From the NCBI RefSeq assembly GCF_007859945.1, contig NZ_SJPQ01000001.1, positions 1,116,001 through 1,180,000 on the forward strand: a stretch of 64,000 bases of DNA. The letters are read 5' to 3'. The notes below the pieces were generated by a model. It did no database searches. It had not been told where the DNA came from and worked only from the letters and a program-made list of their open reading frames with translations. Within the stretch, counting starts at the first letter, position 1. Each line of letters opens with the position of its first letter. Positions 5,902-62,971 of this stretch are shown in pieces. The translations under genes and the position numbers were made by a program. Origin of the DNA: Pseudobythopirellula maris. GTDB lineage: Bacteria > Planctomycetota > Planctomycetia > Pirellulales > Lacipirellulaceae.

Positions 5902-6669
5902 ATGCCTCCCGAAGCACCGCCCCCCGACGCCGAGCCGCCCTACGGGCCCCCCCGCACCGGGCGGCTCGAGCCTTCGCGTTACTTCCCGGCGGCCGAGGGC
6001 GCCGACGACGACGGCTTTATCGGCCTAGGCGGCGAGCTCTCGCCCGAGTGGCTGCTCGACGCCTACCGCCACGGCATCTTCCCCTGGCCGCACGACGATG
6101 ACGACGCCACGCCGTGGTGGAGCCCCAACCCGCGGGCCGTCTTCGAGCCGGGCCAGATGCACGTCTCGCGGCGGCTGGCGCGAACGATCCGCAGCGGCAA
6201 GTTCACCGTCACCTCCGACCGGGCGTTCGCACGCGTTATGCAGGGCTGCGCCAACGGCAAGGGCCGCGAGGGGGGCACCTGGATCACGCCCGCGATGCGC
6301 GAGGCGTACACCCATATGCACGAGCTCGGCTGGGGACACAGCGTCGAGGCGTGGCTCGGGGCCCCCGAGGACGACCAACTCGTGGGGGGCGTTTACGGCC
6401 TGGCGATCGGCGGGCTGTTCGCCGCCGAGAGCATGTTCCACCGCGAACGCGACGCCTCGAAAGTCGCCCTCGCCGCCCTGGTGCGCCACACGGCCGAGCG
6501 CGGCTACCGGCTGCTCGACATCCAGCAGTGGACCCCGCACACCGGCAGCCTGGGCGCCCGTGAGATCTCACGCGACGAGTACCTGGGGCGCCTCGCCACG
6601 TGCATCGACCTGCCGGTCACCTTTGGGGCGATCGAGTTCACCACAGAGAGCACAGAGGACACGGAGTAA
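5902..6669 (+). CDS. aat: Leucyl/phenylalanyl-tRNA--protein transferase
   Basis: Transfers Leu or Phe from tRNA to proteins with N-terminal Lys or Arg, marking them for ClpAP (N-end rule). 255 residues. Diagnostic motifs are present in order: GIFPWPHD, WWSPNPRAVF, the MQGCA segment, GTWITPAMREAY, GGVYGLAIGGLFAAESMFH and LLDIQQWTPH. The normal protein ends near the IDLPVTFG segment; the last ten or so residues (FTTESTEDTE) are encoded by the arm of an intergenic hairpin repeat, which also supplies the TAA stop. The added tail is probably neutral. There is no strong ribosome binding site before the ATG. Confidence 0.95.
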   Translation: MPPEAPPPDAEPPYGPPRTGRLEPSRYFPAAEGADDDGFIGLGGELSPEWLLDAYRHGIFPWPHDDDDATPWWSPNPRAVFEPGQMHVSRRLARTIRSGKFTVTSDRAFARVMQGCANGKGREGGTWITPAMREAYTHMHELGWGHSVEAWLGAPEDDQLVGGVYGLAIGGLFAAESMFHRERDASKVALAALVRHTAERGYRLLDIQQWTPHTGSLGAREISRDEYLGRLATCIDLPVTFGAIEFTTESTEDTE

Positions 6670-6834
6670 GAACGAAAAATGGGACGCGGATGAACGCGGA
6701 TCAAGTGGATAGACGCGGATACAAAATTACCTTCATCCGCGTCTATCTTTTCAATCCGCGTTCATCCGCGTCCCATTCTTAGTCTTAATTCCCTTTCTTC
6801 TTCCTCCGCGCCCTCTGCGCCTCTGTGGTTCAAT
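6637..6834. repeat. Long nested inverted repeat between aat and the cystathionine synthase-like gene
   Basis: Three nested pairs of arms. Outer: the CACAGAG-type words at 6637-6666 against the complementary words at 6804-6833, imperfect. Middle: perfect 24-base arms at 6678-6701 and 6754-6777, built on repeated ACGCGGATGA. Inner: perfect 12-base arms at 6709-6720 and 6735-6746. The stop codons of both flanking convergent genes lie inside the outer arms. On RNA it would form one long hairpin and could end transcription from both sides. Confidence 0.9.
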
Positions 6835-25693: not shown

Positions 25694-27385
25694 TCAGCCG
25701 ACCATCCGCCAGCCCACCAGGGCGAGCACCGGCAGCAGGAAACAGCAGCTGTAGAGCATGTACCCGAAGAAGCTGGGCATCTTGACGCCCGACTTCTCGG
25801 CGATCGCCTTGACCATAAAGTTCGGCCCGTTGCCGATGTAGGTCATGGCGCCCATGAACACGGCGCCCAGCGCGATGCCGACCAGCCGCGACTCGCTCAC
25901 CCCGGCGACGACCGCGTCGCCCGGCACCTGGGAGAGCGTTTTGGCCGTCTCGAAGAACACGACGTAGGTCGGGGCGTTGTCGAGCACGCTCGAGAGGCCG
26001 CCCGTGATCCAGTAGAAGGCCAGCGGCCCGTCGATGCCGAGCTTCGGCCCCTGCTCGTTGAGGATCTGCAGGGCGGGCTGCATGCAGATGAAGATGCCGA
26101 CGAACAGCGCCGCCACCTCGAGGATCGCGTGGTAGTTGAAGCCGTTGGCCTCGCGGACCGCCTTGCTGCCGAGCCACAACGACGCCCCGACCAGCCCGAT
26201 CTGCACGATCTCACGCAAGTACATCCAGGGGTGCCAGTCGGTGCCGGGCAACGCCTTCGAGGGGTCGAGGAACGCCACCGCGGCCACCACGCCCAGCAGC
26301 AGCGGCAGGTTCACGAGCACGCCGCTGTACTTCAAGTGGCGGATGTGGTGGATGTCGCGTGTGATGTCCGCCTCGGTCTCACGGCGGTAGTAGAACAGCT
26401 CGTCCACCAAGAGGTAGAGCACCAGCAAGATGCCGTTGCACATCAACCACGGCTGCCACAGCTGCAACGTCCAGAAGAAGTCGACGCCGCGCAGGTAGCC
26501 AAGGAACAACGGCGGGTCGCCGATCGGCAACAGGCAACCGCCGCAGTTGCAAACGATAAAGATGAAGAACACGACCGTGTGGACGACGTGCTTGCGTTCT
26601 TGGTTGGTCTCCAGCAGCGGACGGATCAGCAGCATCGCGGCGCCGGTGGTCCCGATAAAGCTGGCCAAGATGCCGCCGGCCGCCATAAAGATGGCGTTCG
26701 TCATCGGGTTGGCCTGCAGGTCGCCCTCGATGCGGATGCCGCCCGAGATCGTGTAGAGGCTGAACAGCAGGACGATAAAGGGGACGTACTCGGCGAACAA
26801 CGCGTTGGCGACCATCGCGCCGACCGTGTCGAGGTTCAGCCCCGATTCGCTCGCCTCGACCACGTGGTGGGCGGGCCAGTGGCCCTCGACCGGCGCCTCG
26901 TGCATCACGCCGTAGTAGGCCAACGTGAGGATCGCCAAGGCCGACGCCACGGCGAAGCGGCTGGCGTTCGACTCCCACCAATGCTCGGTGGCGGGAATGA
27001 GCGGCAAGATCGCGATCGCGCCCAACATCAACGCGAAGGGGGCGACCATCCAAATCGGCGGGGCGTTCGAGGGATGATCGGCCACCGTTTGCTCAGGGTC
27101 GGCCAGTGGCGGCTCGGCATGCTCATCTTCAGCGTGCTCTCCCTCGGCATGCTCTCCCTCAGCGTGCTCTCCTTCAGCATGTTCGCCCTCAGCGTGTTCG
27201 CCATCCGCGTGCTCAGAATGCTCGTCGTGATGGGCGGCGTGGCCGGCGACCACCGCTTCGGTCCCCTGTTGCGGCAAGCCCATTGCAAGGCTTACGGCGT
27301 AAAGCACCAGCACAACCAAGATCGCTGCGAGCACCGGGCCGCTGCTTGTCGCCGGATGGTGTTCGACGTTCGTTGAATCAGTCAT
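25694..27385 (-). CDS. NhaD-like sodium:proton antiporter with a His/Glu-rich repeat loop
   Basis: 563 residues with about 13 hydrophobic segments, similar to the NhaD/ArsB ion-transporter superfamily annotated as Na+/H+ antiporters in planctomycetes. From ATG at 27385: a first membrane helix at about 17-38, then a loop with tandem HAEGE units at residues 59-91, then the membrane domain from about 110. Transport motifs such as [18 protein letters not shown] (as [16 protein letters not shown]) and [14 protein letters not shown] are conserved in this family. The repeat loop should lie outside the cytoplasm and could bind divalent metal or sense pH. Substrate (Na+ or another cation) is inferred. 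Confidence 0.88.
27113..27211. repeat. 15-base tandem repeat encoding HAEGE units
   Basis: About six copies of a 15-base unit encode HADGE, four HAEGE and HAEDE in the antiporter. The copies are nearly identical in DNA, which suggests slippage or recent expansion. Confidence 0.9.
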
Positions 27386-44372: not shown

Positions 44373-44920
44373 CCCCATCGATGAGCTGCTCTTTTCCGCC
44401 AGAGTCGACTTTTCGGAGTGCGGGCAATTTGCTGGCGAGACTTTGCTCATGGGTTACTGGTGAGTTTTTCAAGTTCACTGTATTGAAGCAGCGGCTCGCC
44501 TACGATGGCTTAGAGCGGTTTTCGAATTGGTGTGGACGAGCGGGGAAGCGATTGGTGGCGTGGCGAGGAAGCCGAAGCAGGCAATGCGGTGCATTGTCGA
44601 TGCAGGCTGACGAAGCCATGACGCCGATCGCGAGCCGAGCGTCTACACCTATGAGCAAACCGCTCTAGCCGTGTGCTGCTTCCATGGTGAGGGAATATCG
44701 CCATACTGGCGTGAGGTAGCTTTGTGTAGCTGAGCGCCGAGAAAGTTGGCGATTCAGTCCATTGGCGAATTGCGGAGCAGACCTAAAGTTGCTTCGTTGC
44801 CGCCGCACTGGAGAGCAAAGCCCCCGCAGGTGCGACCACATTGGCACGCTTTTTGTAGAAGTGAGTCCGTCTACAAGAACACCTGGCCGCTCCTCTCACC
44901 TCGCTCACGGATTTCCACAC
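44373..44920. other. Intergenic region with MITE copy 1
   Basis: About 550 bases between the HAD gene and egtD. The central 157 bases are the MITE-like element; the flanks carry no gene I can support. Confidence 0.7.
44511..44667 (+). mobile_element. MITE-like element, copy 1
   Basis: 157 bases bounded by perfect 11-base inverted ends TAGAGCGGTTT and AAACCGCTCTA. A second copy at 53290-53445 in reverse orientation differs at only about four positions. If the outermost TA on each side is the target duplication, this fits elements moved by IS630/Tc1-mariner-type transposases. It encodes no transposase. A short internal hairpin (AATGC, ACC, GCATT) is present. Confidence 0.85.
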
Positions 44921-53289: not shown

Positions 53290-53445
53290 TAGAGCGGTTT
53301 GCTCATAGGTGTAGGCGCTCGGCTCGCGATCGGCGTCATGGCTTCGTCAGCCTGCATCGACAATGCACCGCATTGCCTGCTTCGGCTTCCTCGCCACGAC
53401 CCCAATCGCTTCCCCGCTCGTCCACACCAATTCGAAACCGCTCTA
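53290..53445 (-). mobile_element. MITE-like element, copy 2
   Basis: 156 bases, reverse orientation relative to copy 1, with perfect inverted ends. Its right end forms the TAG stop codon of the GH16 gene. Confidence 0.85.
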
Positions 53446-54339
53446 GCGGTCGACGGCTGGGAGCTGCTGGTACACGCGGACGTAGTCGATCGAGTACCTC
53501 GAGGGGAACCGCGAGCCGCTCGGATCGCCGCCGTTGGTCCCGCCCACCGCGAGGTTGAGGATCAGGTAGTGCGGCTGGCTGAATGGGTTCTGACCCGATT
53601 CGCCCCCGCCGTCGGCGTCGCTCACACGGATCTCGTTCAGCAGTCGGTCGTCGACCGAGAGCCGGATGCTCTCGGCGTCCCAGTCCATGCGCCACACGTG
53701 GAAACGATCGGCCCATCCGGCGCCTAGCTCCTCGATCGGCAGACGCGATTCGTCCCACACCACACGCGGCCGCTCGCCACGCCAGGCGGCGTTTGCGAGT
53801 ATCTCGCCCCGGTAGTACTCCATCAGGTCGATCTCACCACAGGCGGGCCAATGGCCGCTCTCGCCGAGCGTCCAGATCGCCGGCCACATGCCGGGTTGGG
53901 CGTCGATCTTCGCCTTCACCTCAAGCCTGCCGTAACGCCAGGCGTGCTTGCCGCGTGTCGTCAGAGACGCGGAGCTGTATTCGGCGTGGGAGCGGCGGGC
54001 CGCCCACCGCCGCTGACGCGACGAGGCCTCGGGGTCGTGCCCCGGATTGGGCACGCGCTCGCGGCGCGCCTCGATCACGAGCACGCCGTCTTCGCATCGG
54101 GCGTTGTCGGGCTGGTACCACTGCAGCTCGCGATTCCGGACAAAGCCGCGCTCGCAGCCCCAATGTTGCGGGTCGGGCGAGCCATCCGTGTCGAACTCGT
54201 CCGACCAAAGGAGCCGCAGGTTCTCGTCTTGCTGGGGGGCTGTCGCCCAGGCCGCACTCGCTGACGCTAGCAAGGCCGCTGTGGCGAGAGCCCCCAACAG
54301 CGCAATGACGCGGCTGGCCGGTAGTCGATTGCGATTCAT
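53443..54339 (-). CDS. Exported family GH16 glycoside hydrolase
   Basis: 298 residues. Signal peptide (VIALLGALATAALLASASAA). The GH16 catalytic motif is intact as GEIDLMEYY (Glu169 nucleophile, Asp171, Glu174 acid/base). Adjacent features are FARRERVP..., YGRLEVKAKIDAQPGMWPAI and the C-terminal LILNLAVGGTNGGDPSGSRF. GH16 enzymes cut beta-1,3/1,4-glucans or algal galactans; the pairing with a GH2 beta-galactosidase directly upstream hints at a galactan but does not prove it. The last codon is followed by TAG, created by the end of the inserted MITE. It begins 6 bases after the GH2 stop. Confidence 0.93.
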   Translation of the reverse strand: MNRNRLPASRVIALLGALATAALLASASAAWATAPQQDENLRLLWSDEFDTDGSPDPQHWGCERGFVRNRELQWYQPDNARCEDGVLVIEARRERVPNPGHDPEASSRQRRWAARRSHAEYSSASLTTRGKHAWRYGRLEVKAKIDAQPGMWPAIWTLGESGHWPACGEIDLMEYYRGEILANAAWRGERPRVVWDESRLPIEELGAGWADRFHVWRMDWDAESIRLSVDDRLLNEIRVSDADGGGESGQNPFSQPHYLILNLAVGGTNGGDPSGSRFPSRYSIDYVRVYQQLPAVDR

Positions 54340-57652: not shown

Positions 57653-58750
57653 TCATCGGGAGAGGGTCGTGGCGCCATCTTGCCGGTTGCCGCGATCGCG
57701 GTGGACTCGCCAATCGATCTCGTAGCTGACCTCGCGGACGCTCCCATCGCAGTAGGCCACGTTCCAGCCTTGCTGGTGGGCGGAGCCAAACCTGCCCCAG
57801 TGCTCGGCCCGATCGGTAGCGTTGTCGGGCACGGGAGCGAGCTCAACAATCTGGCCCCCTTCGAGGCGGCCCGTTTTACGGTAATTGTCGTTGTTGAAAC
57901 CGGTGCACCAGGTCTCGTTGTCGCCGTAGTCGTAGCCGTTCATGTAATCGGTTTGAGGGATGTGTCGCTCGCCTATCAGGTACGTGTTCGACAGGCCATC
58001 GGTGATCCGCCGCATGGGAACCACGCTGCGCTCGAAGGAGACGCCCGACATCGCGATGCCGTCCGGCAAGTTGCGGTTGGCGAGGTCTTGCTCGCCGCCC
58101 CAGTAGTGGCTGGCCGTCCATCGATCGGCCTCTTGGTAGCTCGAAGGCCCGCGGCCGAAATCGCGGTTGGGCCACTCGTTGTAAACGTGGCCGGAGTTGA
58201 TGGCGTAGTCGCTGCGTCCCGCCACGACCGGGGTGACCGAGTTGAAAAACCCCCAGTCGCCCCCCTCGTTGGCGTTCAGCGGATAGGCGATGTTTGGCCG
58301 GCGCGATGGGCAGTTGATGACCGACAAAGGCGTGCTCACGATCTTGGCCGCCCCGCCCCGCTGCTTGCGAGTCAGCTTGTAGGGGTCGCCGTCGCTCGCT
58401 TGGTCGTAGATGGCGTACTCCTCGAAGTACGGAAGCAGATTGAAGATCCATCCGCCTGGCTGGTCCTTGCTGAAGCCGCGGTCGGCGTCGCCGATCCAGT
58501 ACCACCCCCATCCGCCGCTGGGGAAATGGCCGTGCACATCGTGATGGCCCACACAAGCCAGCGAGAGCTGTTTGAGGTTGTTCTTGCACTCGAGTCGACG
58601 GGCGCTCTCGCGCGCCGCCTGGACGGCGGGCGACACGACCGAGACAAGCATCCCGACGATTGCGATAGTCACCATCAGCTCGACCAGGGTGAACCCGGGA
58701 GCTTGGCGCGGGGCGCGTTGGTTTCGCCATGTCGTGGGATGCATGACCAC
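57653..58750 (-). CDS. DUF1559 pseudopilin-like protein, copy 1
   Basis: 365 residues. Type IV pilin-like N-terminus (PGFTLVELMVTIAIVGMLVS with the cleavage site before Phe), followed by the planctomycete DUF1559 core: PFSGGWGWYWIGDADRGFSK-like turn, NCPSRRPNIAYPLNANEGGD, ITDGLSNTYLIGERHI, NETWCTGFNNDN and HWGRFGSAHQQGWNVAYCDG. This is a surface-located, filament-related fold. DUF1559 proteins occur in very many copies in planctomycetes and lack a proven function. Its position between FecR/LamG and the GH2/GH16 enzymes suggests a role in surface capture or in holding these enzymes, unproven. Confidence 0.93.
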   Translation of the reverse strand: MVMHPTTWRNQRAPRQAPGFTLVELMVTIAIVGMLVSVVSPAVQAARESARRLECKNNLKQLSLACVGHHDVHGHFPSGGWGWYWIGDADRGFSKDQPGGWIFNLLPYFEEYAIYDQASDGDPYKLTRKQRGGAAKIVSTPLSVINCPSRRPNIAYPLNANEGGDWGFFNSVTPVVAGRSDYAINSGHVYNEWPNRDFGRGPSSYQEADRWTASHYWGGEQDLANRNLPDGIAMSGVSFERSVVPMRRITDGLSNTYLIGERHIPQTDYMNGYDYGDNETWCTGFNNDNYRKTGRLEGGQIVELAPVPDNATDRAEHWGRFGSAHQQGWNVAYCDGSVREVSYEIDWRVHRDRGNRQDGATTLSR

Positions 58751-61864: not shown

Positions 61865-62971
61865 ATGAGACCTAAGCATGACCCCCGCACGCCGTCGCCC
61901 GAGCCCCGGCGAATCAATTGCGGCTTCACGCTGGTTGAATTGCTCGTCGTGATCGCGATCATCGGCATTTTAGTGGCGTTGCTGCTGCCCGCAGTGCAGG
62001 CCGCCCGTGAAGCGGCGCGTCGCAACCAGTGCAAGAGCCAGCTGAAGCAACTAGCATTGGGGTCGCTCAACCATCACGACGTGCAGGGCTTTTTCCAGTC
62101 GGGCGGCTGGGGCTGGGGCTACGTGGGCGACCCCGACTTCGGATTCGGCGAAGATCAGCCCGGCGGCTGGGTCTTCAGCACGCTTCCTTTCGTTGAGGAG
62201 CAGCAACTCTACGACCTCAGCGGCAACGGCGCAATCCACGACGCCACGGGGAGACGGCCCGACCGTACGCAGCTCGAATTCGCCACCGAAGTGGTTCAGT
62301 CGATCGTGTCGATCACGAATTGCCCCACCCGACGCCAGCCGATTCTCTACCCTCGCAACGACGGCGCCGGCACGCTCCGCAACGCGAGAACGCCGCTCGA
62401 TACCTCGCGGATGGACTACGCCATGAACTCGGGGCACGCTTACAACGAGTTCCCCGATGGGTCCGCTTTCCAAGCGGGGCCGGCAACCTACGCAAGCGCT
62501 GATATCAATACCTACAATGCCCAGGTAGACCAGGAGCTTAAGCGAGAAGGGCCCAACGGCAGCCCGCTCTATTCGGGCATCTCCTTCGGACGCAGCGAAA
62601 TAAGCCTGCGAAAAATCACCGACGGGACCTCGCACACCTATCTGATCGGCGAGAAGGCCCTGCCCGTGGCCAACTACTCCAACGGCGCCGACCGGGGCGA
62701 CAACGAGACCTGGTGCACAGGCTTTAACAACGACAACTTCCGCAAGACGGGCCGCCTGGTTGGGGGAGAGATCGTCGAGGCGACACCGGTTTCCGACACC
62801 AACACAGCCGCCGAAAACCACGGCCGTTTCGGCTCCGCCCACCCGGGAGTCTGGCTCGCAGCCCTCTGCGATGGCAGCGTCCACGCCGTGAGCTTCGACA
62901 TCGACTGGCAAATCCACCGCGACCTAGGAAACCGCACCGATGGCAACGTCGCCTCGATCGATCAGCTCTAA
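61865..62971 (+). CDS. DUF1559 pseudopilin-like protein, copy 2
   Basis: 368 residues. N-terminal pilin signal CGFTLVELLVVIAIIGILVA, then the DUF1559 core in the same order as copy 1: FQSGGWGWGYVGDPDFGFGE, INCPTRR-like segment TNCPTRRQPILYPRNDGAGT, ITDGTSHTYLIGEKAL, NETWCTGFNNDNFRKTGRLV and HGRFGSAHPGVWLAALCDGS. The two proteins share all these blocks, so they are paralogues. AAGGAG lies five bases before the ATG at 61865. Transcribed away from the sigma factor. Confidence 0.93.
   Translation: MRPKHDPRTPSPEPRRINCGFTLVELLVVIAIIGILVALLLPAVQAAREAARRNQCKSQLKQLALGSLNHHDVQGFFQSGGWGWGYVGDPDFGFGEDQPGGWVFSTLPFVEEQQLYDLSGNGAIHDATGRRPDRTQLEFATEVVQSIVSITNCPTRRQPILYPRNDGAGTLRNARTPLDTSRMDYAMNSGHAYNEFPDGSAFQAGPATYASADINTYNAQVDQELKREGPNGSPLYSGISFGRSEISLRKITDGTSHTYLIGEKALPVANYSNGADRGDNETWCTGFNNDNFRKTGRLVGGEIVEATPVSDTNTAAENHGRFGSAHPGVWLAALCDGSVHAVSFDIDWQIHRDLGNRTDGNVASIDQL

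Follow-up and report, generated by a model that had tools for sequence, protein, structure and literature searches.

Bacterial MITEs are usually local, with their ends kept and the middle free to vary. ERIC elements occur in tens to hundreds of copies and are common to related genera, between which their sequence is conserved, and the insertion sequence IS711 is of the IS427 type. Correia elements of Neisseria and other bacterial MITEs are non-autonomous, insert at TA-type sites, measure about 100-200 bp and form hairpins (PMC10969869, PMC4853749). The ERIC elements of the Enterobacteriaceae and Vibrionaceae are imperfect palindromes that are intergenic and multicopy (PMC10969869). IS711 has been shown experimentally to be mobile; its target is YTAR, within which the TA is duplicated (PMC2266754).

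We identified a MITE of Pseudobythopirellula maris from two copies within the 64-kb stretch of DNA analysed here, hereafter called the window (Table 1). When copy 1 was aligned with the reverse complement of copy 2, we counted 153 identities, three substitutions and a single one-base deletion. The original prediction of two near-identical, TA-bounded copies in opposite orientation, with four differing positions over 157 bases, was therefore borne out, as were its identical 11-base inverted ends, provided that the TA is included: these ends consist of the flanking TA and a 9-bp perfect terminal repeat inside it. Both copies start with TAGAGCGGTTT and end with AAACCGCTCTA, and the terminal repeat GAGCGGTTT occurs six times within the window against 0.57 expected occurrences. 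The MITE has no coding content and as a whole forms a single long imperfect hairpin, a feature not noted in the original prediction, with a minimum free energy of -93.1 kcal/mol when folded as RNA (z -10.8) and of -43.5 when folded as DNA (z -7.0). Its apical core has the form CGAAGCAGGC-N13-GTCGATGCAGG, in which the direct repeat CGAWGCAGG lies on either side of an apical stem-loop.

Table 1. Features of the two window copies (window positions) and the DDE_Tnp_1 transposase matches in the genome of P. maris (G000).
Feature	Position	Strand	Remarks
MITE copy 1	44511..44667	+	153-bp element 44513-44665 between TA 44511-44512 and TA 44666-44667
YTAR context, copy 1			T-TA...TA-G
Left terminal inverted repeat, copy 1	44513..44521	+	GAGCGGTTT
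Right terminal inverted repeat, copy 1	44657..44665	-	GAGCGGTTT
Apical core, copy 1	44573..44606 (G000:C1:1160573-1160606)	+	core-pattern match
MITE copy 2	53290..53445	-	156 bp, both TA counted; orientation opposite to copy 1
Apical core, copy 2	53351..53384	-	read from sequence; covariance-model match spans 53290-53445
TAG stop of GH16-like gene (53443-54339, -)	53443..53445	-	duplicated TA plus first base of the element
DDE_Tnp_1 match 1			two stops within
DDE_Tnp_1 match 2			near contig end
DDE_Tnp_1 match 3			853-bp element, ends TTAGAGGTTGTCCAATAA
DDE_Tnp_1 match 4 (L188)	1346-1904, G000:C1 near 994876		558-bp remnant, ends TTAGAGCGTATCTCAAAAC and CTAGAGCGTATCTCATAAC

The genome of P. 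maris (5.07 Mb in six contigs, 96.5% complete) carries at least 77 copies of the MITE, a high copy number that fits the MITE family of the original prediction. The apical core pattern occurs 77 times and a reversed control pattern not at all, while BLAST returned 137 candidates, including at least 40 copies at 98-100% identity; both ends are perfect in 37 copies among the matches listed. Two copies per 64 kb is close to the average of this genome, and the further copies rule out a chance pairing of the two in the window.

Based on the 37 copies with perfect ends, the target of insertion is YTAR, since a pyrimidine precedes the left TA in 36 of them and a purine follows the right TA in 36. To look for empty sites, we turned to family members in another Pirellulales genome (G119) and set a 12.5-kb stretch containing two of them against seven congeners. 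Both copies are absent from G105, G054 and G083. At the first site the filled sequence reads GATCTAG/AGCGG...CGCTCTA/GCTGGATCGG, with a right flank starting GCTGG, and the empty one reads GATCTAGGCCGATCGG in G105 and GATCTAGGTTGATCGAT in G054 (also given as GATCTAGGCCG and GATCTAGGTTG). The second site, filled as CCTTA...CTA/GCC, is empty in G105 as CCTTAG/ACGC. There is one TA at the empty sites and there are two at the filled sites, and thus the element is a real MITE whose TA is duplicated on insertion, as seen in the G119 family members. The predicted insertion into TA was in this way supported, and the predicted recent movement agrees both with the near identity of the copies and with the sites left empty in the congeners of G119.

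A member in G054 (L058) has both ends and the core, with about 15 bases of one arm missing. One copy in P. maris (L018, 1501-1657) is centred exactly in a perfect palindrome, GCCACGAAAAGGCAC-TA...TA-GTGCCTTTTCGTGGC, which implies that a pre-existing hairpin was its target; this copy was excluded as proof of TA duplication because palindromic flanks fit duplication or none alike.

These empty sites bear on the idea that the element is an intergenic palindrome of the ERIC or REP kind, spread without a DDE transposase, for example by single-strand HUH transposases. REP and IS200 elements are not known to have inverted ends with target duplication. The clean empty sites, the duplicated TA and the IS5-like termini described below all indicate DDE transposition, and we therefore regard this idea as very unlikely, even though a long imperfect palindrome that is intergenic and multicopy does resemble ERIC (PMC10969869).

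The original prediction attributed the MITE to IS630/Tc1-mariner transposition, according to which a DDE_3-type transposase would cut the TAGAGCGGTTT ends and duplicate the TA. The duplication is real, and the length and hairpin shape recall Correia-type elements. However, when the genome of P. maris was searched for the transposase domains PF13358, PF13586 and PF01609, there was no match to DDE_3 (PF13358, IS630) in this 96.5% complete assembly, and in its strict YTAR context and its YTAGAGC ends the MITE agrees with local IS5-family elements. TA duplication alone is no pointer to IS630, since IS711 also duplicates TA within YTAR. The IS630 origin was accordingly not upheld and now appears very improbable; the prediction that the window itself holds no transposase was correct.

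Four DDE_Tnp_1 matches were found in the same genome (Table 1), and none of the matches to the three domains is an intact IS with matching ends. Match 4 is an IS5-family fragment that scores 85.7 bits with NF033580, under the cut-off of 110, which three other IS5-type transposases tested did pass. Its ends are the closest to those of the MITE among the DDE_Tnp_1 matches in this genome. Nearly all of 11 IS5-type elements from P. maris and related genomes have YTA-type ends, starting with YTAGAGC, YTAGGC or similar. The MITE ends resemble such IS5 ends above shuffled controls in most members tested; the resemblance is strongest in members L106 and L206 (p<0.0005) and clear also in L123 and L195, and in the P. 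maris MITE it is found at the left end (p=0.018) but is weak and not significant at the right (p=0.28). The end TAGGCTCTGCCTGAAAA of L106, from a planctomycete MAG, closely matches TAGGCTCTGTCTGAGAA of a Botrimarina IS5 element. The YTAR target, the TA duplication and the end similarity to local IS5-type elements together led us to place the ends within the IS5 family: judged from sequence, the MITE is probably IS5-type by target and duplication and, less firmly, by its ends.

The family extends well beyond this genome. Within the order, 16 of 297 genomes contained the core pattern and the control had no matches; the arm sequence differs between the carriers. Across 84,980 species genomes the scan returned 89 stretches, of which most came from planctomycetes and some were chance matches, and viral contigs had no family match. 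Among 392 sampled Planctomycetota genomes, a covariance model detected members in 56, which represent 43 of 267 genera; this is a lower bound because few candidates were scored per genome. The model also matched 45-71 times in Phycisphaerae MAGs, three times in one Omnitrophica MAG and seven times in one Verrucomicrobia MAG; in the latter two bins, MAG contamination may be the source of the members. Pattern matches in Acinetobacter, Leucobacter, Janibacter, Aquabacterium, a betaproteobacterium, SAR324 and one Verrucomicrobiaceae MAG were judged to be chance and discarded, since the model found nothing in these seven genomes. Cultured carriers include Botrimarina colliarenosi and Aeoliella straminimaris. 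In the open-access literature searched, we found no description of this family.

Other repeats were seen in the window. A second long hairpin at 6640-6830, with GGGACGCGGATGAACGCGGAT / ATCCGCGTTCATCCGCGTCCC nested in ACCACAGAG / CTCTGTGGT, has 67-nt arms that are 79% complementary and lies near the 3' ends of two predicted genes; it did not match the covariance model of the MITE family. Tandem 15-nt units of the CTCGGCATGCTCTCC type at 27113-27202 are likely in a coding region. A 129-nt inverted repeat (57823-57951 and 62670-62798; 75% alike, 4.7 kb apart) possibly represents two paralogous genes in opposite orientation.

The near-identical copies of P. maris vary too little for covariation to be read. 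We aligned 23 representatives of the family without regard to structure. Of 41 consensus pairs, 30 had changed on both sides, and 92.4% of cells were paired. The covariation score on this structure-free alignment was 0.476; slid structures reached no more than 0.123, and shuffles 0.148. In this first set 21 pattern bases are invariant by construction. In 24 members, mostly found by the model only, conservation stands out at the ends (TAGAGC) and in the loops CGAGCGAG, CAAGG.G, CGA.G.AGG, CGA.G.AG, ACG.AG and CGCAGCC, a conservation that the covariance model itself favours in the members it finds. Arms and ends vary by genome, and the full-length hairpin and its purine-rich internal loops are kept. 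Part of the arm complementarity could come from template-switch correction between the arms.

To place the copies relative to genes, we used the window to train a simple codon-usage gene caller. Its predicted genes contain none of the 37 P. maris copies: 16 are between convergent genes, 17 between tandem and four between divergent genes. Random insertion would have placed about 14 of the 37 inside genes, given that the 150 YTAR sites of the window divide into 55 within genes, 87 intergenic and eight at stops. Selection against gene damage would explain this absence. Seven of the 37 copies coincide exactly with a stop codon, window copy 2 being among them and another lying where two convergent genes share their end; against about three expected among non-coding sites, this excess is suggestive only. 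Since TAG is the start of the element, a TAG or TAA codon hit at its TA is restored as a stop. The TAG of window copy 2 does terminate the GH16-like gene, and the first site in G119 falls on the codon that ends a conserved reading frame (...GTA TCG ATC TAG), where the first base of the element rebuilds TAG. The surviving copies avoid coding sequence and the TAG start restores stops, and so movement should cost the host little; a stop-restoring end offers a simple route to harmless insertion at gene ends.

The hairpin could be under selection as a mobile structured RNA, transcribed and serving, for instance, in RNase processing, protein binding or protection of mRNA 3' ends. This reading concerns the interior and is compatible with IS5-type movement. 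The very strong covariation and conserved internal loops speak for it, as do the many purine-purine mismatches on one strand (in a whole-arm count that includes the conserved loops) and the excess of gene 3' ends over 5' ends beside the copies (16 convergent against 4 divergent). In the helices of structured RNAs, G-U is accepted more readily than A-C. In a symmetric test, for which pairs outside the core were picked by Watson-Crick frequency only, the G.T to A.C mismatches numbered 12:11 at 80% pairing and 20:21 at 70%, the ratio expected under random change, in a comparison that had no positive control. An apparent G-U excess of 82:25 from a model-fitted alignment was dropped, since that alignment leans to the model and the symmetric test shows none. 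Against an RNA role also stand the even orientation of copies in tandem gene pairs (8 versus 9), the lack of any promoter or terminator match in the MITE and the lack of an Rfam family at gathering score. MicroRNA precursor models of Rfam gave matches below gathering that reflect the long hairpin only and were set aside. The equal mismatch counts and even orientation favour a hairpin at the DNA level, whether cruciform or single-stranded, or else paired binding sites, over RNA, and we consider the RNA reading unlikely.

As a whole, the element is best explained, with good though not full confidence, as a non-autonomous IS5-type MITE that is probably moved in trans and whose conserved hairpin interior may act as a cis-element. 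An IS5-family transposase of the NF033580 type, with IS711-like TA duplication at YTAR, would bind the TAGAGC... ends in trans and move the MITE. Less firmly, the interior may be a DNA-level element, a cruciform or single-stranded hairpin, to which a factor of transposition or of the host binds, and it might be kept because copies without it fail to multiply. The interior is not filler, given that the same imperfect hairpin with purine-rich loops recurs despite different arms and IS5-like ends. More tentatively, and less likely than not, the family might be a phylum-wide mobile class defined by structure, in which a hairpin module with purine loops around CGANGNAGG repeats retains its architecture throughout the Planctomycetota and in the single Omnitrophica and Verrucomicrobia MAGs, is joined to the ends of whichever IS5-type transposon is resident, and is itself both recognised in folded DNA and needed for spread. 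A middle that is conserved as structure across a phylum while arms and ends change suggests an undescribed general requirement in MITE propagation. With hundreds of copies, clean empty sites and cultured carriers, the family is a well-replicated data set.

In conclusion, the comparison with known systems is closest for IS711 (IS6501) of Brucella, an IS5-family element that shares the YTAR target and TA duplication with the MITE (PMC2266754). As with IS711, IS5-family (NF033580) transposases belong to similar-ended elements of related planctomycetes; however, IS711 encodes its transposase, whereas the MITE is non-coding and consists of a single hairpin conserved over its full length. Non-autonomy, TA-type insertion, size and a hairpin are shared with Correia elements and other bacterial MITEs, but Correia elements carry promoters, whereas the planctomycete MITE has no promoter match and its ends are IS5-like. 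ERIC elements, compared here by description only, are likewise short imperfect palindromes, intergenic and present in many copies, in a different phylum. In ERIC it is the sequence that is conserved, whereas in the planctomycete family it is the structure, with arms that change from genus to genus.
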